This document shows positions 26,093-63,033 of a DNA stretch of 64,000 nt, piece by piece. The DNA comes from Isoetes taiwanensis (taxonomy: Eukaryota; Streptophyta; Lycopodiopsida; Isoetales; Isoetaceae): the NCBI GenBank assembly GCA_021234155.1, contig JAJEKV010000063.1, positions 1,894,947 to 1,958,946 on the forward strand, given 5' to 3'. A program made the position numbers and the translations under genes. The stretch's first letter is position 1, and the number at the start of each line of letters is the position of its first letter. The notes beneath the pieces are model-generated. The model did not search any database and had not been told where the DNA came from. It saw nothing but the letters and a program-made list of their open reading frames with translations.

Positions 26093-26178
26093 CTTGTATC
26101 AGAGCTAGAAGATCTTAGATCATCATCAGAAGCTTAAGCAAGAATTATCAACTTCTTCTACCTATATGACCTCAAAAC

Positions 26179-29098: not shown

Positions 29099-30077
<979 letters not shown>

Positions 30078-32127: not shown

Positions 32128-33031
32128 ATGGGATTCATGGGAATTGGTCTATGAGGCGTGGCCACATTTACGAAAGCGGTTGGAGATTAAGATCTTTGGG
32201 TTTGAAACCCAAGCTTGTAGAGCTTGACAATGGAAGCACAATCCATTGTTGGATTTCAGACAAAGGTAAACACGGCCATAAGCCAAACCTGCTCTTAATC
32301 CATGGATTTGGAGGAGATGGAACATTGGGATGGTCAAATCAGATCCCTGCCCTAGCTGAACATTTTGCGTTATACATCCTTGATCTTCTCTTCTTCGGAC
32401 AATCTTATACTACATGCCCAATGTTTGCTACAACTCCTACAAATCGAAGGTGCTATAGAAGTGGCTAGTTATGGCGGATTTGTGGCATTTTATCACTTAG
32501 TGAAAAAAGTGGTGCTTGCTAGTTCTGGCATATGCATGGATCAAGCTGATCATGATCAACTCTTAGTGGACTCTAAATGTTCCGACATTCTGGACTTGCT
32601 TATTCCCAGCAAGGACCTCGTTGGAGTGAAAAATGCCATCAATTACTCTTTATATAAACCTTTGCGATATATTCCACGTTTCCTCCGTGCGAAAATGTTG
32701 CAAAGGTTCAATGTCAACAGGGAAGAGAGGATCCGATTGTTGCAAAGCAAATGTATAGGGTCAAAAAATAGCCCTGCTTTGCCTGTCTTGGAGCAGGAAG
32801 TGTTGATAATATGGGGTTCTACTGATAGGATGTTTTCGGTGGAGCAAGCTTACAAGCATCTTAGCACAAAAAGGCATCTTAGCACAAAAATCAACCGTTG
32901 TTGTGATACCAATAGCGGGGCATGCACCTCAAATAGATAGATAGATAGATAGATAGATAGAAAACCCCACAGAGTTCAACAATAACGTATATGCATTCCT
33001 TACTAAAAAGATGGAGGCAATTACGTTCTAA
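32128..33031 (+). pseudogene. Alpha/beta-hydrolase, copy 4, broken
   Basis: Same unit as copies 2 and 3. Extra lesions: an altered start region near 32150, and a local duplication of CATCTTAGCACAAAA near 32858-32890 that destroys the frame just before the His motif region. A GATA repeat of about 30 bp lies at 32931-32960. HGFG and WGSTDRMF motifs remain readable; the nucleophile elbow deletion is shared with copies 2, 3 and 5. Confidence 0.85.
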
Positions 33032-35058: not shown

Positions 35059-35926
35059 ATGGGATTCATGGGAATTGGTCTAGCAGACGTGGCCACATTT
35101 CTGAGCAGTTGGAGATTAAGATCTTTGGGTTTGAAACCCAAGCTTGTAGAGCTTGACAATGGAAGCACAATCCATTGTTGGATTTCAGACAAAGGTAAAC
35201 ACGGCCATAAGCCAAACCTGCTCTTAATCCATGGATTTGGAGGAGATGGAACATTGGGATGGTCGAATCAGATCCCTGCCCTAGCTGAACATTTTGCGTT
35301 ATACATCCTTGATCTTCTCTTCTTCGGACAATCTTATACTACATGCCCAATGTTTGCTACAACTCCTACAAATCGAAGGTGCTATAGAAGTGGCTAGTTA
35401 TGGCGGATTTGTGGCATTTTATCACTTAGTGAAAAAAGTGGTGCTTGCTAGTTCTGGCATATGCATGGATCAAGCTGATCATGATCAACTCTTAGTGGAC
35501 TCTAAATGTTCCGACATTCTGGACTTGCTTATTCCCAGCAAGGACCTCGTTGGAGTGAAAAATGACATCAATAACTCTTTATATAAACCTTTGCGATATA
35601 TTCCACGTTTCCTCCTTGGGGAAATGTTGCAAAGGTTCAATGTCAACAGGGAAGAGAGGATCCAGTTGTTGCAAAGCAAATGTATAGGGTCAAAAAATAG
35701 CCCTGCTTTGCCTGTCTTGGAGCAAGAAGTGTTGATAATATGGGGTTCTACTGATAGGATGTTTCCAGTGGAGCAAGCTTACAAGTTGCAAAGGCATCTT
35801 AGCACAAAATCAACTGTTGTTGTGATACCAAAGACGGGGCATGCACCTCAAATAGAAAACCCCACAGAGTTCAACAATAACGTATATGCATTCCCTACTA
35901 AAAAGATGGAGGCAATTACGTTCTAA
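35059..35926 (+). pseudogene. Alpha/beta-hydrolase, copy 5, no microsatellite
   Basis: Frame 1 covers 35059-35397 (MGFMGIGL ... IHGFGGDG ... LLFFGQSYTT) before the shared frameshift. Frame 2 runs to the natural stop at 35926, giving WGSTDRMFPVEQAYK, TGHAPQIENPTEFNNNVY and KKMEAITF. The GATA expansion is absent: a single ATAG sits in the IENP codons. It therefore shows the ancestral C-terminus. The VLGT deletion at the elbow is present, so catalysis is not expected even here. The unit following it is more diverged, consistent with the older end of the array. Confidence 0.85.
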
Positions 35927-37726
35927 TAGACACATTTTTTTTAAGAATATCATTGTTTGCGAAACACACCATTATACGGCCTCAAACAATGGAGGCGCAT
36001 TCTTTTGACAAGCTTACACCAATTATAGGAGTTATTGTTCCTTGACCCATTGACTTCACCATAAAAGCCACTTGTCGTTGGCTTCCATGAAGAAGCACAC
36101 AACAAGCATTTGTTTTGAATTCCATATTGCTACAAGAAGATCTCATATCAACAATCGCTTTTTGTCAAGTGGAGAGAGCATAGAGACTTACATTAAGATT
36201 TTTTTATGCCCAACTACATCTTAAACATGTTTTCTCATAGTATCTTTTAGAATGCACATTGTCGTGATTCCTTAATTAGAGAGTGGAATTTGGCATATTC
36301 TTAGCATGTTTAAAGATACGGTGGTTGTGTTGTTGTCTATTGGCATATTATACATGTCAAAAATCCATTCAGTGCCTAAACCTCCACGGCTACAAAGCCC
36401 CCATCATGCTCCCAGACTCCATCAACCAGCTCGCTTTCTGACAGTCCCTTTGTAACACACCCCATGTTATGGGATAATGGGATCCGATATCAGCCCATCA
36501 ATGGTAATACCAATCCCCATTACAGCCACCAATTTTATACTAATTTTTATTTTTCTATTAAGAATTTTATTCGAGTATGTAAGTGAATTTTAGAGCCATC
36601 TTTTGGTTCTAGTTCATTAACACATTGTCACAATTCCTTAATCGGTGAGTTCAAATATCAGGTGGTTATGTTGTTGTCTGTTGAAACTCCATGCAGTGCC
36701 CAAACCACCATGACTGCAAACCCCTTGTCACGCTCCCAGACTCCATTGACTAGCCCCCTCCCGACAACCCCTCTGTAACACTCCACCTATTATGAGGTAA
36801 TGGACCCGATATCAGTCAATTTCTACATATAATGAATATATAATTGAGTTTTAGAGCCATTTTTGGATTCCGATTCATTGTTTATTAGTTCTTAAGCTCC
36901 ATCTTGAGGTCGCACCCTCCGTCATCTTGCTTTCATATGCACTAATCAGGTATGTGCCTCCCTTTGCTATCATGAATTTTTTTTAACTTATATATGGATG
37001 GTTCTAGATCTAAAAGTCGAGTCTTGAGTAGTCCATGGATTTATTCAAGAGTCTGAAAGATGATTCTCTATTTTTATTTGATGCATGCAATGTTGTTGTG
37101 TTTGATTCATCATGCAACATAAAAAGATTTAGATCTCGTGCTTGAGTTTAGAAGATGTATCTGAAGGTCTTGATCTCATTTTGGCTCCCAAGTCGAATTG
37201 ATCTGCGGTATGGATATCTTCCAAAGGAGGACTTTGTCATGCGTCTTGAGCATTATGCGAGGCTGGCCTCAACATATTAGATAGATGGATGGATGGATGG
37301 ATGGATGGATGGATGGATGGATGGATGGATGGATGGATGGTCACGTTAGAGGAATCTTCGTAGTAATCAGATGTTCTGTAGGCTCTACGCATAAAAGCCA
37401 TTTATAGATCGGCTGTTCTTCTGGGGTGATCAGTCTTAATGTGTCATGCCCACATGGCTATTGAGTTGGATCTTGATGGATAGCTAAGATTTGCTCATAT
37501 TGGGTCATCTAGCAGACTCTACCGAAGGTTCTCAAGCTAAAAGAAACTCTAGAGACTCTGATGCGAATGTTGTAGTATCCTAGCCCAACTTATCATTTTC
37601 ATAGCATATTCTGAAGGATTATGTATTTCTGTTAAGTTATTGCAGGTTAAGGAATACTCCCACTTTTCCACCTAGGCAATTGTCCATGTTGTAGTTGCTT
37701 ATATGTAAGAAAGGGTGTATTTCTCA

Positions 37727-38172
37727 CTTGTATCAGAGCTAGAAGATCTTAGATCATGGGCTTTCCTGCTTTGAGAAAACTCCCAATTGGAGTTGTTTGA
37801 CCTAAATTGTCTAGTTATCAAGTTCATAACTTGTCATCAAAGTAAAGTTTCCTAGAAATTTTGCCAATACCAAGTTTGGCCATAGGCGGCCAAAATTTAG
37901 CAAGAACATTATTTGTATGACTCAAATTTAGGATAAAATTATCTTTGGAGGGAAAGACGTCCCTTTCAAATCTAAGAATAAAAAAACCAGTGCACCAGTG
38001 ACCTGCCATCTAGCTCCTTTATTACATCTTGAGCTCATCTAGCTCCTTTATTATATCTTGAGCTAGGTCGCTCAAATTGGTCTCTTAGCTCCAGTGTGAG
38101 AAAGTAATGTCAATAAAACAAAAATAAAGTGATAATGTCTAGCACTTTTGATTTATAAGCTATTTAAACACA
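37727..38172. other. End of array, then no gene recognised
   Basis: The array homology ends at AGATCTTAGATCATG near 37757. Contains a tandem pair of ATCTAGCTCCTTTATTA words at about 38008 and 38036. Confidence 0.5.
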
Positions 38173-38177
38173 CTTCA

Positions 38178-38614
38178 TTTAACGGACCCATGGGAGACGA
38201 CTCGACGTAGATCTGGGCGTCGTGTTCCAAGACACTGGTATAAATGGGTAGAAGCCACTACTCATAAACGTCTAGACGGTTTTGCCCAGTTGGCTAAGGG
38301 CATGTTGGTTAGGAATGTTACATTTGGTATCAAAGCAGGGCTCGAGTTCGAGTGTCCATGGGGGCAAGTATGCCCCGGAATCCCGTTGGACAGTAGGTCA
38401 TGATTTGGTCTTGGACACCATGGGATGGTGTGGTCTATGGTATTGTGATGCTCGAGGACGAGCATAATGCTAGTGGGAGAGATTGTAACGAACCCATGGG
38501 AGACCACTCGAGTAGATCTGAAAGTCGTGTTCCCGAGACACCGGCACAAATGGGTAGAAGCGACTACTCATAAACATCTAGACGTCTAAGGGCATATCGG
38601 TTAGGAACGTTACA
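38178..38614 (+). mobile_element. Complete TRIM retrotransposon (437 bp)
   Basis: 5' LTR 38178-38322 and 3' LTR 38484-38614 share TAACG(G/A)ACCCATGGGAGA, AATGGGTAGAAGC, ACTACTCATAAAC and a GGTTAGGAA(T/C)GTTACA end. A primer-binding site TTTGGTATCAAAGC follows the 5' LTR directly, and a purine-rich tract TAGTGGGAGAGA precedes the 3' LTR. The 5-bp target duplication CTTCA flanks the element (38173-38177 and 38615-38619). There is no coding capacity, as expected for terminal-repeat retrotransposons in miniature, which depend on other elements for replication. Confidence 0.88.
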
Positions 38615-38787
38615 CTTCATATAATCTTCATTTTAAGATTATAAAATCTACACAACTTCAAATACACATGGCATTACCAAGTTTATAAGACACGACAATT
38701 TCAAATGTACATTGTATTACCAAATGTACAAAGTCGTACATCTCACAATTCATAGATGAATCCAATGCATCTAATGTTAATAGGAAG

Positions 38788-40364
38788 TGTGACGTTCCAA
38801 AGACGATATAACGGTCCCGGGACATATCTTGTACCGCCTCAAATCGCAGCGTACCACCGCCACCCGGACCGACGTGTATGGCGGGTAGCCCCTAGGGGGC
38901 AACTTGCAAGGTATGTGCATTTATTAATGTGCACATTTACCAATGTGCACATTTATCAAGGTGCACATTTTCCCATGTGGATACCTTTATGCCACCTAGC
39001 CATTAAAGGCAAGTGGGCCATACCCAATTATCCCACATGCTTAAAGGGATAATTGGAAACCCTAGCCCTAACCCCTTGTCTATTTAGGTTAAGGAAACCC
39101 TAACTTGCCATTTTCGTCCATAGGGTTTTAGAGCTCTGTTTTGCTCGCTCAAGGGGTCAAGACCGCCTCCCAGACTCTGTCTGAGCGAATTGCACCATTA
39201 GTTTTCCTTGTTAGCTCCATCTTTAAGCAGTTCAGCAGGATGGTCGAATTCAGCGCAGGAGAAGCGAGCCAAGGATCAGGTATTTAGTCGATTTAATAGC
39301 CTAAACCGTCTTCCAGTCATTGTATCAGTAGGTTTAGCATATTAAATCGCTCATAGCAGCCATTTAGATTCCCAGACACCAGACACTAACTAAAGAACCT
39401 AACTCTATGATATAGATTAGATTTAGTTCTTTAGTTCTTCTGTGATGTATATGGATGATGTATCTCTGTGAACTTCTTGTATTGAGAAGGGGGGTAGAGA
39501 CCCTAAAGCTTGGTAGTTGATGCTTCTAGATTAGCCTCTCTAGCACATTGTAGATTTACTTTGCACGAGGAGCCACACACGGTTGTGGGTGAAGGGGCGG
39601 ACCGGCTTATAAAGAGGTTCGTGTTTCGACTCTTGAAGCGATCCCTACGGTGTGTAAAGTCTCACAGGGGATCATTGTGGACTAGGTCTAATGGCTTGCC
39701 CGCTGCGTGTGGGCAAGGCATGGGCTCGGCTGCGTGGAGTGATCGTCACTCTCCAGTGGGTTCAAGTCGAATAAGGGCAGTGGCCCTCTAGTCACCTTGA
39801 GTCAGCATGTAGATCTCTGGAGGGAGAGATCCCTACCTGCCCCATCGGAACTGGGGAGATGCAACCCAGGAATAGCTCCTTTGGCTATGCATCCGGCGGG
39901 CTACAGTCGGGTCCCAACACTTTTTAGCCTACTCAGCAAAGTGTGCACAGGAGGGGCGGATGGAGTGGACAACCCTAAGCCATGTTCTCATGTCAGCCAA
40001 ATCCATTGCCATGAATGCATGCGCAATGAACTCACGGAGACCCAAGGCATGGGTCATCCCTTTGAGTCTGAGCCTTGGGTAGGATTTCCCATGTGATGTA
40101 CTGATCATTGTCTATGCAGATGTGTGATGAGCCACCCTACGAGGTGGTATGTGATATTGATGTTGTGTACTGACATGTATGTTTACGCTTCCGCAGCTAG
40201 GTCGACCCTGAGGGAGACAGGGTAAATGACCCCTTTATTCTTCTCACTGGAATTCATCAAGGTTGCGGTGATCGTGGGAGGCCCCGTGTCGGTGTGGAGC
40301 TGGTATGGGGGATGAACTCTGTTTGTATACGGTGAGAGCAGGTATATGAGTAGGGGCGTCCACG
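38788..40364 (+). mobile_element. LTR of the chromovirus-type element, duplicated copy
   Basis: Starts TGTGACGTTCC and ends near GGGGCGTCCAC, followed by a mutated primer site GTGGTATCGAGC. The leader continues to 40940, then is cut off by the TIR element. No coding region or second LTR belongs to this copy. Confidence 0.85.
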
Positions 40365-40568
40365 GTGGTATCGAGCAATGTTCTTGGAGACCAAGAGCAA
40401 AGCAACCGACCATCGCTTGATAGTACTAACTTGATAGGATCCTCAAACCTCAAAAAGTGGGAAAAAAATTTCTTATTTTTTGTAGTATATGCTAAGCTAG
40501 TAACAGTTAAGTGAATTGGAACATAAAAAGATTAAAAACAGTGAGCCAAAACCTTCTAAGGCAAGGTG

Positions 40569-40635
40569 GTCTCACACGTCGCGCCAGGTCTAAAAACAAA
40601 ACTTCAGTTTTTGAGCTGGGCGCAACGTGTGAGAC
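40569..40635. repeat. 67-nt hairpin, leader hairpin 1 (duplicate copy)
   Basis: Same as 48191-48257: GTCTCACACGT pairs perfectly with ACGTGTGAGAC, with further pairing inward. Confidence 0.85.
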
Positions 40636-40760
40636 ATTGGGCCAAGAACACCTTAAAACTTGATGAATTTCAGAAAAGTAACATGGTAAATCGAGTTCTA
40701 AGGTAAGATTTAGCTAGAATAGTATGTTACAATTACGTAAATTAGTAAAAAATGTACAAT

Positions 40761-40827
40761 GTCTCACACGTCGCGCCAGGACTAAAAATCAAACTCTAGT
40801 TTTTGATCTGGGCACAACGTGTGAGAC
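40761..40827. repeat. 67-nt hairpin, leader hairpin 2 (duplicate copy)
   Basis: Same as 48383-48449. Confidence 0.85.
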
Positions 40828-41224
40828 CAGTGCTTAGAAAACTCTGAAATAAGTGTATGTTTTAAGTCAATAGGTGCCCTGGCACGTTAAATAGAGCAAC
40901 TTGAATTTTGACCTAAAATTGCCCAAGCTATAAATAGATGCACAAGGCACCCAAAATTAAAACACGATATGGTTTTTCCCATGGTTATGACCAAAAAACC
41001 ATTCTACAAAACCAATACATGTAAGTGGGTTGATATCATTAAAAACCATATATGGCTAAAGTTTGTGGTTTGCAGTGGGTGTTTACTAAGGTGATTTTTT
41101 AACATGTTTAACAGGTATAGTTTAATTTAGCACTTCATGTGTACGGTTTATGAATGTGGTATTTTTACATTGTATACATATGTGATTTATATATGGTGTT
41201 CAATATGGTGGTCCTCTAACATGT

Positions 41225-44060: not shown

Positions 44061-46410
44061 TATTAACCATGGGATGGGTACTTATTTCGCCTGGTCCAAA
44101 TAATTTCTATCACCAACATGCATTTTTAGAGACTACATTATTAGAAGATGTCCACTAGTGGGTTTATTTGGGCACAAGAATAGGGTTTCACAACCATGGG
44201 GTCAATCCAAATACATGGCCATTTATAGGAATAGATATGGGTTCCCAAAGCTTATGCCAGTGCTTTCCAGTAGATCCATCAACTCTATAATGTTACCTAA
44301 CAAGTGATTCATTTTCATATGCCACTCTTCAGAGCATAATGTAATGCAATGGGTAATGGTCTGCCAATCAGATGGAATTTTTCAATGATTGACAGCCAGA
44401 GATTTAGAGTGAGGAGATTCGATGTAAGCTATATTCATCTTCTTTTGCTCTTAGGCTTTAAGAATAGGCAATGATTCTCTAATGTTTGCTTTATCAGGTC
44501 AATTGTGTAGCAATGCACTTGCTAAACTGGCTACTTTGTTTGAGTTAAATTATTTTATCATGCTTAGACTTTGGTTACACATGTTGTATGGACTAGCATT
44601 TGAGTATAAGTGCCAGTTCCAAATCTTCATGAAATATCTACAGCATATGATCGTTTGAAATCAAATTGTATTGTGTTTAACTTTTTTGTTTCTTGCTTTG
44701 GTATAGGACCTTCTTTCATAATTGTATATGTCTTTTGGCATCTTGACACAATATGCCAACGTCCACTAGCAAGGGCAAGGCTGTTAGATTGTTCATGGAA
44801 TCGAATTAGGTTTCTTCTGATTCGTTAGACGATGCTTCTTAGTTGCATTTTTCTATGGAGTTACATAGGCGATACACAGAAATTGATGCAAGCATGTTTA
44901 TGGGTCGAATGTTTATGGGTCTTTGATGTTAACCTATGCAATGGTGGCCACAAGACCATCTCAAACTAATAAGCGGGTTCAAAGTTCCATTTTAACATAA
45001 ACTTCAATATTATTGCATAGAGCATTGAAATGTACATGTCCATAACTTCAAGGCTGCTTAATATGTGTTTACCCCCTTCACACATGTCTTCTTCAATTCG
45101 AATGAAACGTTTATTCAATTTAAAATGGCCGCCCATCTACAAAACTCTGAAGCAATGACTTGCTAGATTTCCAACTTCTACAATAACAAACAATAGACAA
45201 AAATAAAAAAAAGCAGTTGATTAAAGAAAGGAAAAGGAAAGAAACGTAGATATGAGAAACAATTTTTTAGAAATAAACATTATTGGTTTGCACCTTTACG
45301 ATTGCCTTTGTATTGGATCCCATAGGCAATTTATGTAGTATGGATAATAAAAAATCAATTCAATTACTAAAAAAATCATCTCCAGAAAATCATCTCGAGA
45401 ATAATTTCCATCTTTCAAAGACCATTATAGCATAACATTTTACTTCTTAATATATACTGGACGTGGATATTAACTTGGTATTGAGAATTTGAAAACCATG
45501 TTAGAAATCTCTGCTAATCAGTATAAGAAGTGTGAATGCAAAACCATATATAGTTCTAAAAAACCACTATATCTATTCCTAATGGTTTGATAGCGGCTAA
45601 TTATGATAATTGTTTTTTGGGTGCTTTATGAATAACCACTATGGATAGCCACATCCTTTTAGGTGATACCTATGAATAGTGACCATGACAATCAACTCGG
45701 TATCGAAAACCATTCTACAAACCACAACCATTTTATAACCTAATTATTAAGATAGTAAACTAGCATGAATAACCACCATGGCATTTAAATTGGTATAAAA
45801 ACCCATGCTATAAACCACTTCAACTTCTCTAAGCCACGTGAGAATAGAAAACCAGCATAAACAACCATTGCCATATTTAAAGTGTTGTTGAAAAACCATG
45901 CTACAAACTTTTGTTGATTTAATAAGTCATGCTATGTTAGAAAACCAATAAAAATAGTTACCATTGATGTTAGAAACCATGTAATAAACTAATATCGACT
46001 TTAGTATACCACATTGTAACACAATATCAACATGAATAACCACGTACTAGTTATGAAAACCACTAAGCTATGTGGTTATTACTAAGAATAGAATTTTTAA
46101 CATAAAAAACCACATCTATAGTGGTTTTTCAGTGGTTTATTATAGTGGTTAAATTTTTGGGTGCCGGCACAAATGGGTAGAAGCGACTACTCATAAACAT
46201 CTAGACGGCTAAGGGCATATCGGTTAGGAACGTTACACTTCATATAATCTTCATTTTAAGATTATAAAATCTACACAACTTCAAATACACATGGCATTAC
46301 CAAGTTTATAAGACACGACAATTTCAAATGTACATTGTATTACCAAATGTACAAAGTCGTACATCTCACAATTCATAGATGAATCCAATGCATCTAATGT
46401 TAATAGGAAG

Positions 46411-47986
46411 TGTGACGTTCCAGCACAGTATACGGTCCCAGGACATATACTGTACCGCCTCGTCACGCGTACACGCCACCCGACTGACGTGTAGCCAAGC
46501 GGGTAGCCCCTAGGGGGCAACTTGCAAGGTATGTGCATTTATTAATGTGCACATTTACCAATGTGCACATTTATCAAGGTGCACATTTTCCCATGTGGAT
46601 ACCTTTATGCCACCTAGCCATTAAAGGCAAGTGGGCCATACCCAATTATCCCACATGCTTAAAGGGATAATTGGAAACCCTAGCCCTAACCCCTTGTCTA
46701 TTTAGGTTAAGGAAACCCTAACTTGCCATTTTCGTCCATAGGGTTTTAGAGCTCTGTTTTGCTCGCTCAAGGGGTCAAGACCGCCTCCCAGACTCTGTCT
46801 GAGCGAATTGCACCATTAGTTTTCCTTGTTAGCTCCATCTTTAAGCAGTTCAGCAGGATGGTCGAATTCAGCGCAGGAGAAGCGAGCCAAGGATCAGGTA
46901 TTTAGTCGATTTAATAGCCTAAACCGTCTTCCAGTCATTGTATCAGTAGGTTTAGCATATTAAATCGCTCATAGCAGCCATTTAGATTCCCAGACACCAG
47001 ACACTAACTAAAGAACCTAACTCTATGATATAGATTAGATTTAGTTCTTTAGTTCTTCTGTGATGTATATGGATGATGTATCTCTGTGAACTTCTTGTAT
47101 TGAGAAGGGGGGTAGAGACCCTAAAGCTTGGTAGTTGATGCTCCTAGATTAGCCTCTCTAGCACACTGTAGATTCGGCCTGTGCACAGGAGCCACACCTG
47201 GTTGTGGGTGAAGGGGCCAGACTGGCTTATAAAGAGGTTCGTGTTCTGACTCTTGAACGATCCCTCTGGTGTGTAAAGTCTACCGGGGATCATTGTGGAC
47301 TAGGTCTAATGGCTTGCCACTGCGTGTGGGCAAGGCATGGGCTCGACACCCGTGGAGTGATGCGTCACTCTCCAGTGGGTTCAAGTCGAATAAGGGCAGT
47401 GGCCCTCTAGTCACCTTGAGTCAGCATGTAGATCTCTGGAGGGAGAGATCCCTACCTGCCCCATCGGAACTGGGGAGATGCAACCCAGGAATAGCTCCTT
47501 TGGCTATGCATCCGGCGGGCTACAGTCGGGTCCCAACACTTTTTAGCCTACTCAGCAAAGTGTGCACAGGAGGGGCGGATGGAGTGGACAACCCTAAGCC
47601 ATGTTCTCATGTCAGCCAAATCCATTGCCATGAATTCTGTCTGCAATGAACTCTGGAGACCCAAGCCGTCAGTCATCCCTTTGAGTCTGAGCCTGGGGTA
47701 GGATTTCCCATGTGATGTACTGATCATTGTCTATGCAGATGTGTGATGAGCCACCCTACGAGGTGGTATGTGATATTGATGTTGTGTACTGACATGTATG
47801 TTTACGCTTCCGCAGCTAGGTCGACCCTGAGGGAGACAGGGTAAATGACCCCTTTATTCTTCTCACTGGAATTCATCAAGGTTGCAGTGATACGTGGAGG
47901 GCCCTGTATCAGTGTGGAGCTGGTATGGGGGATGAACTCCTGTTTGTATACGGTGAGAGCACCGTATATGAGTAGGGGACGTCACA
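46411..47986 (+). repeat. 5' LTR (1576 bp)
   Basis: Begins TGTGACGTTCC and ends GGGGACGTCACA, with TG...CA ends inside an inverted TGTGACGT/ACGTCACA. A TATA-like CTTATAAAGAGG lies at about 47225. At 46530-46590 the words ATGTGCACATTT or close variants repeat three to four times, a candidate enhancer block. Confidence 0.9.
47226..47234 (+). promoter_or_regulatory. Candidate LTR TATA box
   Basis: CTTATAAAG followed by a GC-mixed segment; the same motif is present at the equivalent place in the other two LTR copies. Confidence 0.5.
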
Positions 47987-47987
47987 G

Positions 47988-47999
47988 TGGTATCAGAGC
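47988..47999 (+). promoter_or_regulatory. Primer-binding site, initiator tRNA-Met
   Basis: TGGTATCAGAGC, one base after the LTR end, is the standard plant LTR-element site complementary to the 3' end of initiator tRNA-Met. Confidence 0.92.
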
Positions 48000-48190
48000 A
48001 ATGTTCTTGGAGACCAAGAGCAAAGCACTGACCATGCGCCCAGTAGTACTAACTTGATAGGATCCTCAAACCTCAAAAAGTGGGAAAAAAATTTCTCATT
48101 TTTGTAGTATATGCTAAGCTAGTAACAGTTAAGTGAATTGGAACATAAAAAGATTAAAAACAGTGAGCCAAAACCTTCTAAGGCAAGGTG

Positions 48191-48257
48191 GTCTCACACG
48201 TCGCGCCAGGTCTAAAAACAAAACTTCAGTTTTTGAGCTGGGCGCAACGTGTGAGAC
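48191..48257. repeat. 67-nt leader hairpin 1
   Basis: GTCTCACACGT at one end pairs perfectly with ACGTGTGAGAC at the other. Inside, GCGCCAG pairs with CTGGGCGC (one bulge) and CTAAAAAC with GTTTTTGAG (one bulge). The stem is about 27 bp with a short loop. It lies between primer site and gag, where retroelements often keep packaging or dimerisation structures. Confidence 0.85.
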
Positions 48258-48382
48258 ATTGGGCCAAGAACACCTTAAAACTTGATGAATTTCAGAAAAG
48301 TAACATGGTAAATCGAGTTCTAAGGTAAGATTTAGCTAGAATAGTATGTTACAATTACGTAAATTAGTAAAAAATGTACAAT

Positions 48383-48449
48383 GTCTCACACGTCGCGCCA
48401 GGACTAAAAATCAAACTCTAGTTTTTGATCTGGGCACAACGTGTGAGAC
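48383..48449. repeat. 67-nt leader hairpin 2
   Basis: A paralogue of hairpin 1: the same 11-bp closing stem and the same spacing, with several changes in the inner part. Start-to-start distance is 192 bp. Confidence 0.85.
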
Positions 48450-48550
48450 CAGTGCTTAGAAAACTCTGAAATAAGTGTATGTTTTAAGTCAATAGGTGCC
48501 CTGGCACGTTAAATAGAGCAACTTGAATTTTGACCTAAAATTGCCCAAGC

Positions 48551-48558
48551 TATAAATA
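48551..48558 (+). promoter_or_regulatory. Candidate internal TATA box upstream of gag
   Basis: TATAAATA stands about 110 bp before the gag ATG, at a spacing that would give a leader of about 80 nt. It is downstream of both hairpins. Confidence 0.4.
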
Positions 48559-48659
48559 GATGTAGACCCCCCTCATTCGTACGTTCCTGCCTTAGAAATC
48601 TGCTCCCGCTCCCTAAGGCGATCTTTGGCACCCAACATCGGATTGACGAGCCATCAAAC

Positions 48660-49055
48660 ATGGCCAGGACGAAACAAACTGCTCGAGTTCCTCGACCTGG
48701 TGAATCGCCCAGTGCCCATGATCCTAGCCTGATACAGAGGATGCTTCAGGAGCGCCTTCTCAACCAAAGGGACCAGACATCATCGAGCGAGGGAGCACCT
48801 TCGGAAGAGCACCGAGAGGAAGGATCTCAGCAGGGAGGAGCACAGGACGGGGAGATGGACCAGCAGGTCGACCGAGAAGAGGAGGCGCACTCAGACGCAG
48901 GGACAGAGCTGCTCGAAGAGGAAGAGGAGGGAGCAGAGCGAGAAAGGAGAACCAAGGCTCGTGAAGAGCAGAGACTGCCGACTCCCGAGCCGACCATCGA
49001 CGAACAACTCGAAGCCTGGATTCGCGAGAAGGAGGCAGAGGAGCAAGAAGAATAG
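48660..49055 (+). CDS. Gag-like N-terminus with histone H3 tail mimic
   Basis: The ATG opens 131 codons beginning MARTKQTAR, identical to the first nine codons' product of histone H3, then diverging (VPRPGESP). The rest is highly charged and probably coiled-coil: an acidic stretch (EEEEEGAERERR) and an imperfect repeat, EAWIREKEAEE followed after the stop by AAWIKKHEAKE. The TAG at 49053-49055 interrupts that repeat, so it is probably a mutation; the same frame then continues to about 49195. No CCHC zinc knuckle is visible. By position (after primer site and leader, start of the only internal reading frame) it is Gag. What the H3-like tail binds is inference. Codons differ little from neighbours. 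Confidence 0.7.
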   Translation: MARTKQTARVPRPGESPSAHDPSLIQRMLQERLLNQRDQTSSSEGAPSEEHREEGSQQGGAQDGEMDQQVDREEEAHSDAGTELLEEEEEGAERERRTKAREEQRLPTPEPTIDEQLEAWIREKEAEEQEE

Positions 49056-49099
49056 AGGGAGCCAATGCTCGAGCCAAGCAAAGAACAAGACCTCGCGGC

Positions 49100-49492
49100 G
49101 TGGATCAAAAAGCACGAAGCAAAAGAACGCCGCCGAGAAAGGAAGAGGGAAGAGAAGAAGAGGAAGAGGAGGAGGCGAAAGCAGCCGAGGAGCTGAAGAA
49201 GAAGAAGAAGGGGAAGTTCATGCTGGGCCAAAGAAAACTCAAGGAGGTTCCACGAACAAAGACCCCCAACCCCAAGGTCGTCATCACCGAACGGTCAGCT
49301 GACCAGCCCCCGCCCTCCTCCGACGACTCTGAAGACGAAGACTTCAACCCCAACACCGAAGGTGGAAGCTCTTCTAAACCCCCAGCTGATGAGCAGGCAA
49401 TACCCGACCCCGAGCAGCCGGATCAAGCGCAGAAGCCCCCACCATATCCGACTTGGGACAGGAAGAAACAGCCACGGCCTGCCCGAGAATCC
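49100..49492 (+). pseudogene. Gag continuation in a shifted frame
   Basis: Reads EEEEEEEAKAAEELKKKKKG, FMLGQRKLKEVPRTKTPNPK, VVITERSADQPPPSSDDSED and a proline-rich tail (PDPEQPDQAQKPPPYP). It is the charged middle and disordered end of the Gag-like protein, separated from the start frame by at least one frameshift. It ends where integrase similarity starts. Confidence 0.55.
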
Positions 49493-50064
49493 TATGTGAG
49501 CAAATGTTGGCCGACATGCAACAGCTCGTGGAAGAAGTTCGAGGATATCTTCTTGCAGCAAGACATCGGACAATCAGAGAGTTCCAAGTTAGCGACGACG
49601 TATGGCTCAAGATCAAAGTGAAGCAGGCGAAGCTCCGCATCGGAAATTGTAAGAAGCTTGCTCCAAGGTGGGCTGGACCTTTCAGAATAGTCCAGAGAGT
49701 AGGAAATCAATCCTACAAGTTAGACTTGCCAGCACACCTAAAGATTCATAAAGTCTTCCACGTGAGTTTGTTGAAGAAGCACACCCCAAATCCAGACGAA
49801 GTCTTGGACACTCCAACGTTGTTGAAAATGACGGAGGAGCAGCTGGAAATAGTTCCAGAATTGATTCTTGATAAAGCCTTCAAGAAAACAAGGAGATCAG
49901 AGTTTCTCCAATATTTGGTCAAGTGGAAACACTTGCCCGTGGAAGACGCGACATGGGTACTTAAGAAAGATCTATTAAAGCAGTACCCACAGTTTATGGA
50001 GCAATGGGACGGCAAGGTCATCTTCGAAGAAATCGGCTCAGGCATGTCGATTTGTGTAGATTGA
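49480..50064 (+). CDS. Integrase C-terminus (GPF/Y module) plus chromodomain
   Basis: In one open frame: REFQVSDDVWLKIK, KLAPRWAGPFRIVQRVGNQS with YKLDLPAHLKIHKVFHVSLL (GPF/Y module of Ty3/gypsy integrases), then IVPELILD, FLQYLVKWKHLPVEDATWV and DLLKQYPQFMEQW, a chromodomain. The central W of VKW is present, but the other two aromatic-cage positions appear replaced (L for Y in KWKHLP), as in many plant chromoviruses. Such domains direct integration to particular chromatin. The catalytic DDE core, reverse transcriptase and protease are missing; the frame joins Gag-like sequence at about 49490. Confidence 0.85.
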   Translation, partial: CPRILCEQMLADMQQLVEEVRGYLLAARHRTIREFQVSDDVWLKIKVKQAKLRIGNCKKLAPRWAGPFRIVQRVGNQSYKLDLPAHLKIHKVFHVSLLKKHTPNPDEVLDTPTLLKMTEEQLEIVPELILDKAFKKTRRSEFLQYLVKWKHLPVEDATWVLKKDLLKQYPQFMEQWDGKVIFEEIGSGMSICVD

Positions 50065-50090
50065 TTCTATGTGTAGTTAAGATTAATCTA

Positions 50091-50125
50091 CGCATGCAAC
50101 CTATGCTAGGTATGGGTTGCATGCG
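50091..50125. repeat. 35-nt hairpin after the chromodomain
   Basis: CGCATGCAACC ... GGTTGCATGCG is a perfect 11-bp inverted repeat with a 13-base loop, 27 bp after the stop codon. It could act in 3' RNA folding. Confidence 0.75.
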
Positions 50126-51155
50126 TTGTTACCGATGATGAGACCGCTACGGTGATCTCTAGGACGTGGTGTAATGTCAATGTAGGCATGACCGCGGTTC
50201 CGCTTGGATGAGTTGGAAGGTAGATTAGAAAGTCTACTTCTGTCCCACGGAAGTAGACGACCTCGAGAGATAAGAGGCTATTCAGGAATGCATTGATAGG
50301 AAAAGCACCTCTAGTCAATGCCTACGGGGAGGACCCTATCCTTCACGCCCCATATCTTGAGGAAGGATTCCTATCCTCCACGTTAGGCAACTAAAATGTA
50401 GGCATAGCCATATAGGCATTATAGAGTATTTGTCTCCTCAAACCCGCGATGGAAGAAGCATCCTCTTCCTCGCCATACATTCATGTAGATAAGGTAAATT
50501 GTAGTCACCTTATAACCAAATTTTTTTATCCAATCTTGTTAATTTGGGATTTTTCGGTTTTGGCCAAAACTTTTGGAATTTTTGTTAAAGCCCAGATTTG
50601 CTATGATTTTGGGTTTCTAGCTTGGGAAAAACTCACTTAGATTGTCCAAAAATTGTCATTATAGTTTTTTTTCTTATTTCCATCCTTATCTGGCAGAGAG
50701 TGCATGCTATACAGAGGAATCGACGTGTATCGTCGTGGCATCCACGAGGATATGTTAAGTGAAATTGGCAAGCCGAGGCGAAGCATTTGTGCTTTTTTGT
50801 CGACTTTTCGTTTGATTGATTGGAAACGAGGGTTTTCCATGGCGGATGGTATGATTTTGGGGTTTGGGGTTTGCATCGAATTGCCTTGACTCCACGAATT
50901 GCGTGTGTCCGAGAAAGGGCCCGATTGGCATGCAATCTGGAACATGAGTTAATCTGCGGTTTTATTTGTGCTCAAGGCGGTCCGGATAGGCTGTGATATG
51001 CCGATAACAGAGGTATCGATACTCTAATGAAATCGTGTATTGCCAAGTTTCGTTTTGATTTGTCACGAGAGGCATTGCTATTTATCTATGATTCGGTTTT
51101 TATTCCCTTTCAAGTTTTGTTCGGAGAAACATGAGAGCCGGCTCGAAATATTAAA
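50126..51155. other. Element interior, no gene recognised
   Basis: Non-coding 3' interior of the LTR element. Open frames near 50704-50889 show no recognisable domain. Confidence 0.4.
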
Positions 51156-52639
51156 TCCTACTAAGATATGACGAAGTTTTTACAAATGAAGAAACAACGG
51201 ATGGATAGATGCATATCGGGCTCTCAAAAGATGTAGTTTTTCATAGTTTCTTACTACGCTTGAGTTCACAAAGCGACTTATTTTCCCGATTCGTATTTCA
51301 ATTGGTTTTAAGGTCAGATTTCTAAGATCCTGTTGATTTAGATAAGGGTAGAATCGGATGCTTTATGCATGTTTTTCCTCCGTAACTTGAAAACAAGGCT
51401 ACAAATTTGGTTTGCATGCATAAACAGGAGAAAAAGGAATACATGGGCAAGGCATCTAATATGTGCAAATTTTGCATTATAATTCTGTTTGAGGCATGTT
51501 CTACTAGGGAAATTGGGTCATGTTTAAGGTTCTAACTAGGTTGCCAAAGGTTCTACAAGGGAAATTGCATGCTGGAGATTGGCAAGGCTGAGCTGAGTAT
51601 TAGGTTCTCTATAAGTTTGCTTCAAATTTAGGATCTTTAGATGGGGAATGTTCATGAGCTCCTTAGCTCATTTTAGGACTTTTTGATCGAAATATCTTGC
51701 ACGATTTGAAATATGAAAAAAGGCTTTGTGCAAAGGGCTTAGTTTTCCATCAAATTATGTTGCATGTGGTTTGTTCTCTCTGTTCCTTTCTTTATACCTA
51801 GATATAGACTTGAGATGTAACATGCTTTGAGTTCGTTGTCTTTTTAACTTTGATTCATAAATATTTTTATGAATGACTTTGTCTCTTCTTCATTGTGTCA
51901 CGGGCAAAAGTTTCCATAGACATAGACATGTGCTATCAATTGTCAATATATCCATGCTAAAAGAATTATAATAGATAGATAGATAGATAGTATAATAATA
52001 AGAAGTATAGTATTATAATATAAGAAGTGTTGTACAACATGAGATAAACTATTGATATTGTATCCAGGGATGAACATCTGCCATGGCACTTGATGTGTGA
52101 ATGATATTTGACACTTTGAGACTAGATTGGCATTTACATTTTCGTTGCAGAATGGAGCTTGCCCATTTTGGAAAGATGGGTTATGCATCTAGATATATCA
52201 TAGAAGTAATTACGTATCTATTGGACAATGAGCCTTGGTTTTCTCTAGGCCTTCTGTGCTTCTTCCTCCACCTGATCAACAAATTGCTTTAGCATGGATA
52301 CAAGCGAGCATGGATACAAGCCCGGTGATGGGTTTAAAAGCAATGGCAGCAAGGGATGCCGAATTCTAATGCCCAATTCTAACATTGTAGGTTCATCTAT
52401 TGCATCTTCAACATATTGTCTTGCCTGTCTCTTGATTGTTTAGCTTGGTTACTTAATATCTTTCTTAGTTTTTGCAAGCCCTGCTCTACATGCCATTTGC
52501 ACATTACTAACATGGACGAAATCTATAGTTACATTTTCTAAATTATGTATGTATCTCTAGCTGGAGCTTGCTTTAAACAATCATTAGCGGATGTTTGCAT
52601 GCTCTTGACTCTTTTCAGAATACATGTAAGGTGGCGAGA

Positions 52640-53130
52640 ATGATCTTGGCGTTGCTTGAAGCTCGTTTTATGCTTAAGGACATCCGTCGGAAAGGTCATT
52701 GAAAGGTCCATTGATGCTAGGCGTCCATTTTCCAACTTCCTAGCATAAATGGGCCAAAACAAGTGCCAAATTAGGCGCAATATCTTTCTTTGCCACAGTT
52801 TTGATCGAAATATGGCCATAGCTCCTAAATGAAAGCTCCATTTTTTTGCGCAAGAACATCCATCGAAAAGGTGACTAGAAGCTCCACAATTGATGCTAGG
52901 CGTCCATTTTCCAAATTCTTAGCATAAATGGGCCAAAAGAGTGCCAAATCAATCAATGTATTTCTTTGCCACGCTTTTTTCTGGTTGGGTAGAAATATGG
53001 CCATAGCTCCTAAATGAAAGCTCTATTGTGCATTGCAAGAACATGTATTGGGAAGATCATTGGACGATCCACAAATATTGCTAGGCATACATTTTCCAAA
53101 TGCTTAGCATGAATGGCTCAAACCACCAGT
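52640..53130. repeat. Three units of the roughly 175-bp minisatellite (second locus)
   Basis: Same family as 10080-10565: ATATGGCCATAGCTCCTAAA, AAATGAAAGCTC, GAACATCC, TTGATGCTAGGCGTCCATTT and TAGCATAAATGGGCC. Confidence 0.75.
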
Positions 53131-53311
53131 CTGTATTTGTTGAACTTGGTTTTTACAACATTTGCAACAAATTTTGTTATGGCGGTTGAATGCTTGGCCT
53201 TACTTAGTAGTTGGCTTTCTTGCACATCTTTGAGGACCTTAGATGTAAATTCAAGCAACACTTAGGCAAGGCTTCTTCAAAGATTCCATTGGCTTTACAC
53301 ACAAAAGTGCT

Positions 53312-53725
53312 TTGCTTTGTGCAATGATGTGGATCATGACTGGTACAACATGCGGTTTCTTGCACATAGTCACGTTGAAGATGAAGCAAAAGAGAAGTCT
53401 TGGCCATTACTCTAAGTTTCTCAATTCAATTTATCTTGAGAAATGCATTGTCCATATTTTCATTCTGCGAGGATTTGTTTTAAAGAGGTATTTCAAGTTC
53501 ATAGCTGCAAGATTAATGAATTTGGATAAATCCAAAAGTTTGGTTAACCTAATTGCAGATCTTGATTATATTGATCTAGGTCTTCCTCCTAAACCTCTAG
53601 CCTTGGGGTACCTCAATATTAGTGACATTGGTTTGAATTTCAAGAATGGTCATCTTTGTAACTTAGCAAATTCTTCCAAAGTGATCAACTTTGTTTTCGC
53701 GGTACGAATGAAGGGCTTCATTTGA
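53312..53725 (+). other. Open frame of 137 codons, unidentified
   Basis: Contains FIAARLMNLDKSKSLVNLIA and DLGLPPKPLALGYLNISDIG. Not recognised. May be a captured gene piece in the Helitron or chance. Confidence 0.25.
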
Positions 53726-54820
53726 CAAGTCCTTGAATACTTGCCCACAAACAAAGTGGCTTGCAGCTTTGATTTTCATTCTCGCATATTCTTCATTCAA
53801 TGAGGAACAGCTATGAGTTGTTTTAGCATTGGAATATTTTAAGAGTTCCGAGAGGGCATACAATGTCGATTCTATGATCTTGCTTTACGCCATTTTTTCC
53901 GGAGGCAAAAAAGGATTAAAGAGATGAATTTGGCAAGTGAGAAGGGGCATCATGATCTGCGATTGCAATAATGGAGCTGCAGCTCTTCCATTCTTGCCTG
54001 CGACAACTTATTCCATTTGAGTAAAGTTTTACTGAGGTAGATAAACTGAAGCATACACAGTTAGCGGAAGAAACAAAAGCATTTGAAAAATTTGACCCTG
54101 GCCTTTAGAGATATCACTGATTTAGGACAAACTTGCTTGCCAAAATTGACATGTATGCAACTTTGAAAGTGACAAAACACGTTGATGCTTAAGTTTCTTA
54201 AATGATCCTGACATCGTTTCTTTCTCCTTGGAATGACTATTACTTCTGTCTTGGTTGATAAGTGCTTCTTGGAGTCATTTGAGGTGCAATGAACCAAACG
54301 ACCTTCAACAAGAGAAGGTATTTACATCAACTTTGTTATCTGGTAGTGTCCATAGCACTAGAGTTCGTTGTATTAAAACCTTCACCATATTCTAGACATT
54401 GATCTGACTCTGCAGACACTGTGCAGACACGCCTGCATTCCAAGGCATAACAAATTCCATTTTTTTTAATGTCACCCACGTTCTTTGATTAGGCCCTTCA
54501 GCACCAGGATTTCAATGAGGTGGTTTATGAACTTTCTTACAAGTCCATAGCACTGTAGTTCATTGCATTTCTCTTCTTTAATCTGTTGTATTGGAAAACC
54601 TTCACCATATTCCAGATATGATCATGGCTACATTCCAGATCATAACAAGTTTCACCATTTGCATTTCATTCAAGTGAGCTCAGGTAACATCTTCTTAATG
54701 TTCTTTTAAAAGTTGTTCATTCATTCAATGTAATTGTATAAGGCTTTAAATTGTGATCAAATATGTTTTTCTCTGTACTTTAGCTTCTATCCCTGAGAAT
54801 GGCGATAAACAATTAGAAAA

Positions 54821-54997
54821 GAACCAGTGGAAGATTTTAACTTATGGACTCAGGTTTATGACATTACCTCTGTGACGGAAGAGCGAATTCAGGATATCTG
54901 GAAAGCAAGTGCGGCCATGATGGAGGCTGTTGATAGAGCATCTGCAAGAGAGAAAAGAGGAGGGAAAGGCATTGTTTCCATGCAAAAAGGAAAATAA
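54821..54997 (+). pseudogene. Possible captured terminal exon, unidentified
   Basis: An open segment with coding-like composition: EPVEDFNLWTQVYDITSVTE, then IWKASAAMMEAVDRASAREK and GIVSMQKGK, stop TAA at 54995-54997. Lysine-rich C-terminus. I do not recognise the parent. Its isolation inside a Helitron suggests gene capture. Confidence 0.35.
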
Positions 54998-56383
54998 CAT
55001 TTCATCGTTGTGTACATTTGTGAAGTATTATTTCCTCTCTATTTGAGTTTTAATGGTATTAATACCACATTTTAATACTAGAAATTGGTGCTTGCCGCTT
55101 ATGTTCGATGATTTCAAAGTTCAAATATCACGACTGCAGGTCTGCCCCAGTGTCCAGCTTGCAGTTTGCAGATATAGCTCCCATTAAAATCTGTATAAAA
55201 TGTGGAATTGTTATCTCAATATAGAGAGATCATAATGTTTCAGCAGTTCAACAGTTGCTTGCTGCCTTATTGCGTAGCTATTAGTCTTTTGTGTAGAAGT
55301 TGAGATAAGTTATGAACTTGCCTTCCCATCTTTAATGCAAATGAAGAATGAGAATGCTCTTCATACAACTCAACTAAAAGGAAGTTGAGGTCTGTGTTAA
55401 AGTGAAATTATTAAAGAATCCACTTCATTGGGTTTTTGATCTATGGTTCACCATAAATATCTGTACATATTCCTGCATTATTGAGAAATAGGAAGTAATT
55501 CCATACAATTAAGTGACACTGAAGGCAAGCCAAATCTTGATGACACCCAACTCAATTCACCGGAAGGTGACAGGTGAGAAATTTTGGCGAATATTCAATG
55601 GGCTTTCTCTTGATGACTTGCTTGCTGCTTTGCAGATAGACATCTATCTGTCAAGAGTGTTCTTTGCTCAGCTAAATGTGTTGCATACAGCGAACTCAGA
55701 TATGCTAACCCGATTTGAGCCAACCATCGATTCATTTCTAGAAGTATATGTTTCATGAAAGACTACAAGTGAAATACCTCACTATGGAATAGTTTATTAA
55801 ATTCACCATCTTCAGGTTGGTATTTCCATAATTTTGTGAAATGACCACAGAATGAGGATAGGTTGCTCCTATTGGGAGCTAAAAACATATATTACTTAAT
55901 ACACACCATTTTGAGCATATCAACGTTCATGTGCAATTATTTACTCCTATGGTTTTGCTTGCCATAGATACATGGATGTGCATTATGGTTTTATTCGTCT
56001 CACAACATAATTGTAAGACACACAAAGACTAGAAGATATAATAGGACAACTGCATGTGTTTAGGTAGTAAAGATACCCTTTTGCAAATTGCTATTGTAAT
56101 AACTGTTTTTGCATCATGCCTTAAAATCTATGTTGTGAGGATGCAAACTGTGCATACAAAATGAGAACATTCAAATTTATAACATAATCATCATATCACA
56201 CTTTACAACATCCAATGATCAATGATCGTGTAATAACAACCAAAACTTAATAAATGAAGACTTAACATATATTACCTTTGCCATCTCCAAGCTACATGTC
56301 TTTTTTAGCCAATGATGAAACAACTGCCTCTTCTCCTCTTCAAATTGTTACTAAAGCCCGGCAACGCCGGGCACCATAACTAG

Positions 56384-56801
56384 TTAATAATTAAAATGGT
56401 ACTAACGTAGTGTCGACCTGCAGGCCAATAGAGCGCTCCGGAGGGCAAGGAGGTCGAGCTACGAAGACTTGCAACACAAATTTTGTTGGAATGTGTTGCA
56501 AGGAATGAAGAGTACCTCGAAGGATAATTATATATATGAAATATTAAAATTTTGATAAACTAAAATGTCGTGATAAGTGAAACTAGTGAGTAACTTGTTT
56601 TAATGATGCTACGAATTAATAAGTTATTTCATAAGATAATGGCGTAATAATGTCCTAAAAATATTACCTTAAGGTAATCATAATAAATGTGTAAGTATTA
56701 TAGTAGTATATTGTATGCATCAGGTTGATTGCAGGTTAGGAGGATTCCAAGGTGGGGAGACCCACGATGCTGCAGACAACATCATTTCAAGGTGGGGAGA
56801 A
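56384..56801. other. 3' interior of the LTR element up to the polypurine tract
   Basis: Non-coding. CAAGGTGGGGAGA occurs at about 56748 and again directly before the 3' LTR, so the polypurine tract is duplicated. Confidence 0.6.
56790..56801 (+). promoter_or_regulatory. Polypurine tract
   Basis: AAGGTGGGGAGAA lies immediately 5' of the TGTGACG start of the 3' LTR, the expected place for plus-strand priming. Confidence 0.8.
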
Positions 56802-58386
56802 TGTGACGTTCCAGCACAGTATACGGTCCCAGGACGTATACTATACTGCCTCGTCACGCGTACACGCCACCCCGACTGACGTGTACGCCAACGTGTAGCC
56901 AAGCGGGTAGCCCCTAGGGGGCAACTTGCAAGGTATGTGCATTTATTAATGTGCACATTTACCAATGTGCACATTTATCAAGGTGCACATTTTCCCATGT
57001 GGATACCTTTATGCCACCTAGCCATTAAAGGCAAGTGGGCCATACCCAATTATCCCACATGCTTAAAGGGATAATTGGAAACCCTAGCCCTAACCCCTTG
57101 TCTATTTAGGTTAAGGAAACCCTAACTTGCCATTTTCGTCCATAGGGTCTTAGAGCTCTGTTTTGCTCGCTCAAGGGGTCAAGACCGCCTCCCAGGCTCT
57201 GTCTGAGCGAATTGCACCATTAGTTTTCCTTGTTAGCTCCATCTTCAAGAAGTTCAGCAGGATGGTCGAATTCAGGGCAGGAGGAGCGAGCCAAGGATCA
57301 GGTACTTAGTCGATTTAATAGCCTAAACCGTCTTCCATTGTATCAGTAGGTTTAGCATATTAAATCGCCCATAGCAGCCATTTAGATTCCCAGACACCAG
57401 ACACTAACTAAAGAACCTAACTCTATGATATAGATTAGATTTAGTTCTTTAGTTCTTCTGTGATGTATATGGATGATGTATCTCTGTGAACTCCTTGTAT
57501 TGGGAAGGGGGGTAGAGACCCTAAAGCTTGGTAGTTGATGCTCCTAGATTAGCCTCTCTAGCACACTGTAGATTCGGCCTGTGCACAGGAGCCACACCTG
57601 GTTGTGGGTGAAGGGGCCAGACTGGCTTATAAAGAGGTTCGTGTTCTGACTCTTGAATGATCCCTCTGGTGTGTAAAGTCTACCGGGGATCATTGTGGAC
57701 TAGGTCTAATGGCTTGCCACTGCGTGTGGGCAAGGCATGGGCTCGACACCCGTGGAGTGATGCGTCACTCTCCAGTGGGTTCAAGTCGAATAAGGGCAGT
57801 GGCTTTCTAGTCACCTTGAGTCAGCATGTAGATCTCTGGAGGGAGAGATCCCTACCCCCCATCGGGCGGGAGATGCAACCCGGGAATAGCCCCTTTGGCT
57901 ATGCATCCCGGCGGGCTCTGATCGGGTCCCAACACTTTTCAGCCTACTCGGCCAAAGTGTGCACATGGGAGGGGCGGATGGAGTGGACAACCCTAAGCCA
58001 TGTTCTCATGCCGCCCAAATCCATTGCCATGAATTGCATGCGCAATGAACTCACGGAGACCCAAGCCATCAGTCATCCCTTTGAGTCTGAGCCTTGGGTA
58101 GGATTTCCCATGTGATGTACTGATCATTGTCTATGCAGACGTGTGATGAGCCACCCTACGAGGTGGTATGTGATATTGATGTTGTGTACTGACATGTATG
58201 TTTACGCTTCCGCAACTAGGTCGACCCTGAGGGAGACAGGGTAAATGACCCCTTCATTCTTCCCACTGGAACTCATCAAGGTTGCAGTGATACGTGGAGG
58301 GCCCTGTATCAGTGTGGAGCTGGTATGGGGGATGAACTCCTGTTTGTATATGGTGAGAGCACCGTATATGAGTAGGGGACGTCACA
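56802..58386 (+). repeat. 3' LTR (1585 bp)
   Basis: Matches the 5' LTR over its length, with an extra ACGCCAACGTGTAGCC-type segment near 56890, and scattered differences in the 57850-58060 part. Ends GGGGACGTCACA followed by the GGAAG target duplication. Confidence 0.9.
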
Positions 58387-59280
58387 GGAAGCAAGACATG
58401 TTAGCAAATAAACTGATAACCATATATTTCCCAAACACTGTTCATGTGGAATTGACTCTGTTACTGTAGCAGAGTTGACCCGATGACATATTCTAAACAA
58501 GGTGCACCCTCAAGTACCTCAGTCGTTGGATCTGTCCAACATACGACCCTAATCTTATTTGGAGCCTTTGGGTGTCTCTTGTTTCAATTATAATCATTTA
58601 CGATTTGGGGTGCCTATGGTTTTGAAATATGAAATGCAAGTTCGTCTAAGGTTTTGAAATCTGAAATATGAGGACACATCTCTATACGGTTTGCCTAAGG
58701 TTTTAAATAATAAAACATCGAGACTCGAACCTCTATAAAAAAATTCAATATCTAACTAGTAAATGTGTGCCCAGCATTGCCGCACATAAGTACGCATGTA
58801 TTTATAGGACTGATTGACAGTCAAAATAGGATTGATCATATGAGGTTGGTGCCTTAACCAAAGAAATTTTAGTCATGTCTCTCTATATAACCATTGCACA
58901 TTTATGTCTCCAACAGGAAACATGAATTTGCTATGATGTTTATTGCACTAAATAATATCTTTTTGCTTTTGTCAGAGTTCAACAACTGTTGAGTATATGA
59001 AAAAATTGCACAAGCATGTGTCTGATATTGCCATGTAGTGTGCTTATATACACATTCAATGTAAGACATCATGTGGAGTTGGTACTCTTCATGGCTCTTT
59101 TAGGATTCGTGTCAAAGCGTGTCCCTCTATATAGCTTCTCCATGTCCATGATTTCAACAAATCTCATTATCTTATTATATTATGTTTATCGCCCTCGAGC
59201 AATTTTTGAGAAACAAAATGTGAAAATAGGAATCCATTTTTTAAGTTCAGTCACTCTAAGAACATTCAGTATGGAGGCAG
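58387..59280. other. Flank; minus-strand Helitron 3' terminus at 58756-58786
   Basis: ACTAGT at 58755-58760 followed by GTGTGCCCAGCATTGCCGCAC is the reverse complement of a decayed Helitron end (stem GTGCGGCAATGCTGGGCAC, then CTAG and T). The body would extend to the right on the minus strand; no 5' end was identified. Confidence 0.45.

Positions 59281-60382: not shown

Positions 60383-63033
<2,651 letters not shown>

Follow-up and report, generated by a model that had tools for sequence, protein, structure and literature searches.

The genome of Isoetes taiwanensis contains a family of Ty3/gypsy chromovirus elements whose first open reading frame, ORF1, almost certainly encodes an H3-like histone consisting of an H3 tail, a charged linker and an H3 fold. 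The frame is part of the element itself. Canonical H3 residues 1–8 or 1–9 (Met excluded) are followed by a linker of roughly 300–350 residues and then by an H3-type fold. The explanation that best accounts for the observations as a whole, and that we consider likely to be right, is that ORF1 of this family encodes a functional H3-like histone with these three parts.

The window, the stretch of 64,000 nucleotides that was analysed here, contains at 48660–48686 on the plus strand the sequence ATGGCCAGGACGAAACAAACTGCTCGA, which translates as MARTKQTAR and is equal to the N-terminal tail of histone H3. A sequence-only reading had pointed to these nine residues lying exactly at a start codon, and direct reading confirms it. 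The same reading had judged a chance match very unlikely. This is upheld by the recurrence of the motif in relatives of the element and by a degenerate MARTKQTAR pattern (up to 3 mismatches), which has a single match in the window, with 0 mismatches, and was matched in 0 of 100 dinucleotide shuffles. The frame opened by the motif is of 131 codons and is stopped by a TAG at 49053–49055. A protein search with this 131-aa frame returned 12 candidates, none of them at E<=10. The features of the element in the window are:

46406–46410, no strand: target site duplication GGAAG, left copy (flank reading)
46411–47986, plus strand: 5' LTR (TG...CA), 95.8% identical to the 3' LTR (self-BLAST and end reading)
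47988–47999, plus strand: primer binding site TGGTATCAGAGC (sequence), which we take to be of the initiator-Met tRNA type
48191–48257, plus strand: leader hairpin 1, a 67-nt imperfect palindrome (RNA fold z -8.3)
48383–48449, plus strand: leader hairpin 2, 90% identical to hairpin 1 (RNA fold z -5.9)
48660–48686, plus strand: MARTKQTAR, the H3 N-terminal tail that starts ORF1 (direct reading; conserved in relatives)
48660–49499, plus strand: 5' remnant of ORF1 (H3-like histone), tail and charged linker without the histone fold (alignment to other copies)
49497–49509, no strand: deletion junction joining the ORF1 linker to the integrase end (alignment and domain order)
49594–50010, plus strand: remnant of the integrase C-terminal SH3_Tf2-1 domain and chromodomain (Pfam SH3_Tf2-1 E=1e-21, Chromo E=1.3e-10)
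56789–56801, plus strand: purine-rich stretch AAGGTGGGGAGAA before the 3' LTR, a probable polypurine tract (sequence)
56802–58386, plus strand: 3' LTR (self-BLAST and end reading)
58387–58391, no strand: target site duplication GGAAG, right copy (flank reading)

With its TG...CA LTRs, target site duplication, primer binding site and polypurine tract, this is a genuine Ty3/gypsy LTR retrotransposon insertion, and the frame with the H3 tail is part of it, as had been supposed from the letters. The chromodomain that marks a chromovirus was found after the integrase, in 49453–50061 (Chromo E=1.3e-10). This copy consists, in order, of an LTR, the leader, the H3 tail, the end of the integrase and the second LTR. 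Alignments with ORF1 copies from many loci go no further than 49497–49499, and judged from these that point is the edge of a deletion in the window copy. All that the window keeps of ORF1 is its tail and linker, because the fold was lost in this deletion along with ORF2, Gag and most of Pol. The remnant is interrupted in frame by the TAG at 49053 and also changes frame, and the window copy is therefore dead.

Between the chromodomain and the 3' LTR lie 6.7 kb without long ORFs (50064–56801), within which a repeat at 52656–53154 is also present at 10103–10591. The element is present once more at 38541–40940, as a partial copy that comprises the LTR and the leader up to just before ORF1 and is 96.5% identical to 46164–48562 by self-BLAST; it resembles a segmental copy, because the match takes in ~245 bases outside the LTR. 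Elsewhere in the window are a cluster of five tRNA-Leu(CAA) genes, arranged in tandem on the minus strand with a repeat length of about 430 bases (14795–16617), a tandem array of units of about 3 kb containing ORFs that we take to be alpha/beta-hydrolase pieces (23748–37757), and a long TATC microsatellite (62890–63033).

To find relatives, the first 60 residues of ORF1 were searched in six frames against the genome from which the window comes (1110 contigs, 1,658,258,908 bases). The published assembly is of 1658.30 Mb, in 204 scaffolds and 909 unplaced contigs, and the main text of the genome paper has no match to 'histone' (PMC8566536). From 1145 first-look candidates 150 were scored; all 150 matched, 145 of them aligning from residue 1, and the matches of the window's element family, here called family A, are spread over many contigs. 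Fifty loci were examined and then nine more, picked for long open frames (L-numbers denote loci of this genome). L024, which is the same place as L047, and L059, which has no open ORF1 from the start codon, were left out of the counts. At the DNA level an exact MARTKQTAR start is present in 41 of the 49 distinct loci of the first set, with four Ala codons and five Arg codons all in use. Among the other eight is L041, which was read in a shifted frame and has another frame that gives MARTKQTARV. Each of tail residues 1–8 is kept in 46–48 of the 49 loci while synonymous codons vary.

In the relatives ORF1 does not end with the tail: a long charged linker follows, and the C-terminal part is, by sequence, an H3 histone fold. 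The Pfam Histone domain is found at E=2.5e-27 in L048 and 1.1e-24 in L047, and the best PDB match of the fold is histone H3.3 (E=4.6e-27). Open ORF1s are 407–467 aa long, as opposed to the canonical H3 size that goes without the long linker. Most copies are broken: the frame from tail to fold is open in 6 distinct loci of the 49, a set partly chosen by frame length, and in 8 of the 9 additional loci chosen for long frames. ORF1 of L050 stops just before the fold, despite a long open gag-pol frame in the same locus, and several other loci have no fold match in the stretch examined.

The earlier reading had also stated that K9 is not mimicked. This applies to the decayed window copy, which has V at that position, and the position is V in 29 of the 49 loci (K in 14, I in 3 and others in 3, with L041 read in the shifted frame); it does not apply to the copies with an open tail-to-fold frame, in which K is present in 14 of 14. 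MARTKQTARK is exact in 11 of these 14 open ORF1s and the remaining 3 carry one change each.

Is ORF1 then a Gag protein that carries a short histone motif, as had been proposed? By that explanation ARTKQT on the particle protein would recruit or decoy H3K4 factors, and the exact, strongly conserved tail at the start codon is what it would lead one to expect. However, no Gag domain is present by Pfam in the ORF1 piece of the window or in ORF1 of L047, L048 and L050. In L050 a different ORF, which opens about 3.7 kb downstream of the start codon of ORF1, contains Retrotrans_gag/Ty3_capsid, the RVP_2 protease and RT. Gag, PR, RT and the start of RNase H were identified there by Pfam, and the rest of the Gag-PR-RT-RNaseH-IN order comes from the order of probes in the loci. 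Since the frame reaches the H3 fold and Gag lies separate, ORF1 is read as a whole H3-like histone, not as a tail motif on a particle protein. Mimicry by Gag is highly improbable. Recruitment or decoy of H3 readers by the ORF1 tail is nonetheless possible, the tail alone could work as a decoy, and the docking of such proteins on the peptide may fit as one part of the mechanism of an ORF1 histone.

Part-specific probes place leader, tail, fold, ORF2 and Gag in this order on one strand in 13 of 19 long loci (L032–L050), although among the 13 the fold match is weak in L036 and L039 and the Gag match (37–41%) in L039 and L043. Leader sequence precedes the tail in all 19 and LTR sequence is there in 18. 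One or more parts are missing in the stretch examined of L037, L041, L042, L044, L045 and L046, and L041 runs into pol on the opposite strand.

ORF2 (L047 4712–5887, L050 3498–5023) encodes about 500 aa and is conserved between copies. It has no Pfam match above the cut-off, and a protein search gave one match among 7378 candidates, P0029 (501 aa), at 40% identity over 100%. A predicted structure of its C-terminal part was discarded (mean pLDDT 32.5). In seven loci (L035, L042, L044 and L047–L050) strong 67-nt hairpins come in pairs, one pair ahead of ORF1 and another between ORF1 and ORF2, those between the two frames of L048 being at 2992–3061 and 3192–3261. The RNA fold z of the 67-nt hairpins is -5.9 to -8.5, and the pairs are possibly translation or packaging signals.

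Selection was assessed over all pairs of the 14 loci in which ORF1 is open from tail through fold, a set chosen for open frames. The pN/pS was 0.040 for residues 2–10 (bootstrap 0–0.10) and 0.12 for the fold, as compared with 0.47 for codons 11–34 and 0.31 for the linker. These values are rough because the pairs are non-independent, dS is near saturation for many of them, and pS is lower at codons 11–34 (0.33, versus 0.60 in the tail), which explains part of the pN/pS contrast. By pN alone, codons 11–34 differ six-fold from the tail (0.153 versus 0.024), and the tail is the 12th lowest of 440 nine-codon windows. Tail and fold are thus shown to be under strong purifying selection between copies, the tail being as constrained as the core of the fold, whereas the codons that come next drift. 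Conservation of the motif amid a drifting neighbourhood had been proposed as the check on the sequence-only reading; among relatives in the same genome this is what is found, in a protein other than Gag.

In 18 aligned folds C110, R116 and D123 never vary and H113 is conserved in all but one; we take these four to be H3-H3' contacts. The fold differs from H3 at several residues, for example LIRKLPF changed to LIPRAPF, which are presumably sites of H3-DNA contact, and with such changes a nucleosome containing the protein may be unusual or fail to form.

A search with the fold (L048 ORF1 residues 340–451) gave 28 matches. The 12 that were inspected are long H3 variants, none with the plan of tail, linker and fold; the remaining 16 served only in the tree. 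P0004 was rejected as an instance of the same design: it has a MARTKQT start, but its fold lies within about 50 residues of it and the extra length is behind the fold.

A canonical H3 query gave 9049 first-look candidates across the genome, some of which are not matches, and 150 of the candidates were scored. Fifteen are ordinary H3 genes (96–98% identity) and 135 rows are 72–86% identical, many of them in long open frames. Six of the 135 (L060–L064 and L066) were taken as a sample of a second family, family B. L060–L063 encode ORF1-like proteins which, counted from the likely start, are roughly 400 residues long. They have the H3 fold at the end and an N-terminal part that differs from that of family A and is without the ARTKQT start. 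Pfam E-values in two tested family B proteins are 8.1e-41 and 1.7e-40, and the six folds are 87–89% identical to the host H3 gene L065. In L060, the sole family B locus with context, the ORF1 region is at 245–1945 (fold 87% identical to host H3). It is followed downstream by Gag, protease and RT (64% identical to the family A probe, 57% and 84%, respectively) and by pieces of RNase H/integrase; nothing in the locus was found to resemble the LTR or leader of the window. With a histone ORF1 in family B as well, the histone frame is probably a trait of a wider element lineage.

Some plant elements carry fragments of host genes. A host histone gene may likewise have been picked up by accident and be carried without use. 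Most copies do read as decayed, and the identity of the family B folds to host H3 is consistent with capture from the host lineage. Accidental carriage is very unlikely, however, given purifying selection on tail and fold amid large synonymous change in the 14 chosen copies, the many copies, and the same position of the frame in diverged elements.

Where did the family A fold come from? Compared with canonical H3 (host gene L065), ORF1 shares the first 9 tail residues in open copies, the H3 fold and the length of loop 1, but its tail match ends after K9, the linker of roughly 300–350 residues is added, and the fold of L051 is 59% identical to host H3. With plant CENH3 it shares the MARTK start, the fold residues LIP.APF and VTLMR.D and its placement in the tree; unlike CENH3, it has an H3-type QTARK tail and no loop 1 insertion, and pairwise scores are not in favour. 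The CENH3 and H3 references in these comparisons and in the trees are assumed to be correct.

The family A fold may be CENH3-like, and one explanation is that it derives from a CENH3 of plants and directs the element, or its particle, to the chromatin of centromeres. The first fold tree used the 46 of 48 sequences that passed a length filter, and follow-up tests used 26 and 32 sequences; there were 87 columns, and the plant CENH3 references were those of Arabidopsis and rice. Family A folds form one clade (99.9/100), which adjoins the Arabidopsis and rice CENH3 references (83.9/97, and 94.9/96 after addition of host H3 and family B). The AU test rejects a grouping of family A with canonical H3 (p=0.030), and at the 7 columns that separate H3 from the plant CENH3 references family A is CENH3-like at 4, H3-like at 0 and neither at 3. 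On the other hand, KH and SH do not reject family A with H3 (p 0.08), and AU does not reject family A with family B (0.17), or with host H3 as well (0.14), though the CENH3 grouping stays best. Nor does AU reject CENP-A monophyly (0.21), and human CENP-A stands apart from plant CENH3 in both trees, a sign of low resolution. Arabidopsis H3 scores above rice CENH3 by pairwise BLAST in 11 of the 14 copies, loop 1 is of H3 length, without the insertion of 1–2 residues in the CENH3 references, and has VT instead of WT. The spread of family A over so many contigs also speaks against centromere targeting. With assumed references and 87 columns the CENH3 placement is a lead, not a result, and targeting through a CENH3-derived fold is unlikely.

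How, then, might a functional H3-like histone serve the element? With the fold and the H3-H3' contact residues kept, the protein would pair with host H4 and enter nucleosomes or H3-H4 dimers. Its free tail would be written and read like that of H3, at K4 and K9. The protein may label element cDNA or chosen chromatin for element proteins, perhaps the integrase chromodomain; alternatively, it may divert silencing marks from the element. We hold a nuclear histone role to be reasonably probable on the conserved residues, and the targeting step to be possible with the chances against it. Quite unlikely is the fullest version, in which an element-made, perhaps centromeric-type H3 with a K4/K9 tail is built into chromatin, the integrase chromodomain reads that tail as a targeting mark of the element's own making, and the sister lineage does likewise with a second H3-derived protein.

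A protein that stays outside nucleosomes would also be of use to the element if it sequestered H4 or the writers, readers or chaperones of H3 and thereby spared the element silencing by H3K9 methylation. K4 and K9 of the tail are kept in open copies, and the long charged linker could hold the protein off chromatin. The fold is conserved too, beyond what a decoy tail needs, and we consider this alternative rather unlikely.

These elements are like other plant Ty3/gypsy chromoviruses in their LTRs, tRNA-Met-type primer binding site, Gag, protease, RT, RNase H/integrase and SH3_Tf2-1 plus chromodomain end, but differ in having two additional ORFs ahead of Gag, of which the first is that of the H3-like protein. 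Virus-encoded histones, such as bracovirus H4 and the histone doublets of giant viruses, are products of DNA viruses; there too a mobile or viral genome carries a core histone, whereas here the carrier is an LTR retrotransposon and the protein is a single H3-like one. Influenza NS1 is a short histone mimic with an H3 tail-like peptide, a short motif as against the full histone fold seen here. To our knowledge there is no retrotransposon with a core histone gene, and a limited literature search, excluding preprints and most subscription papers, found no retrotransposon-encoded histone.

Histone marks are the means by which transposons are kept under control, and a reader of these marks is already part of chromoviruses. 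If an element made the histone too, the host's system of control would itself become cargo of the element. The family would thus provide a directly testable case for the choice of integration sites, for escape from silencing and for histone variants arising from mobile DNA.
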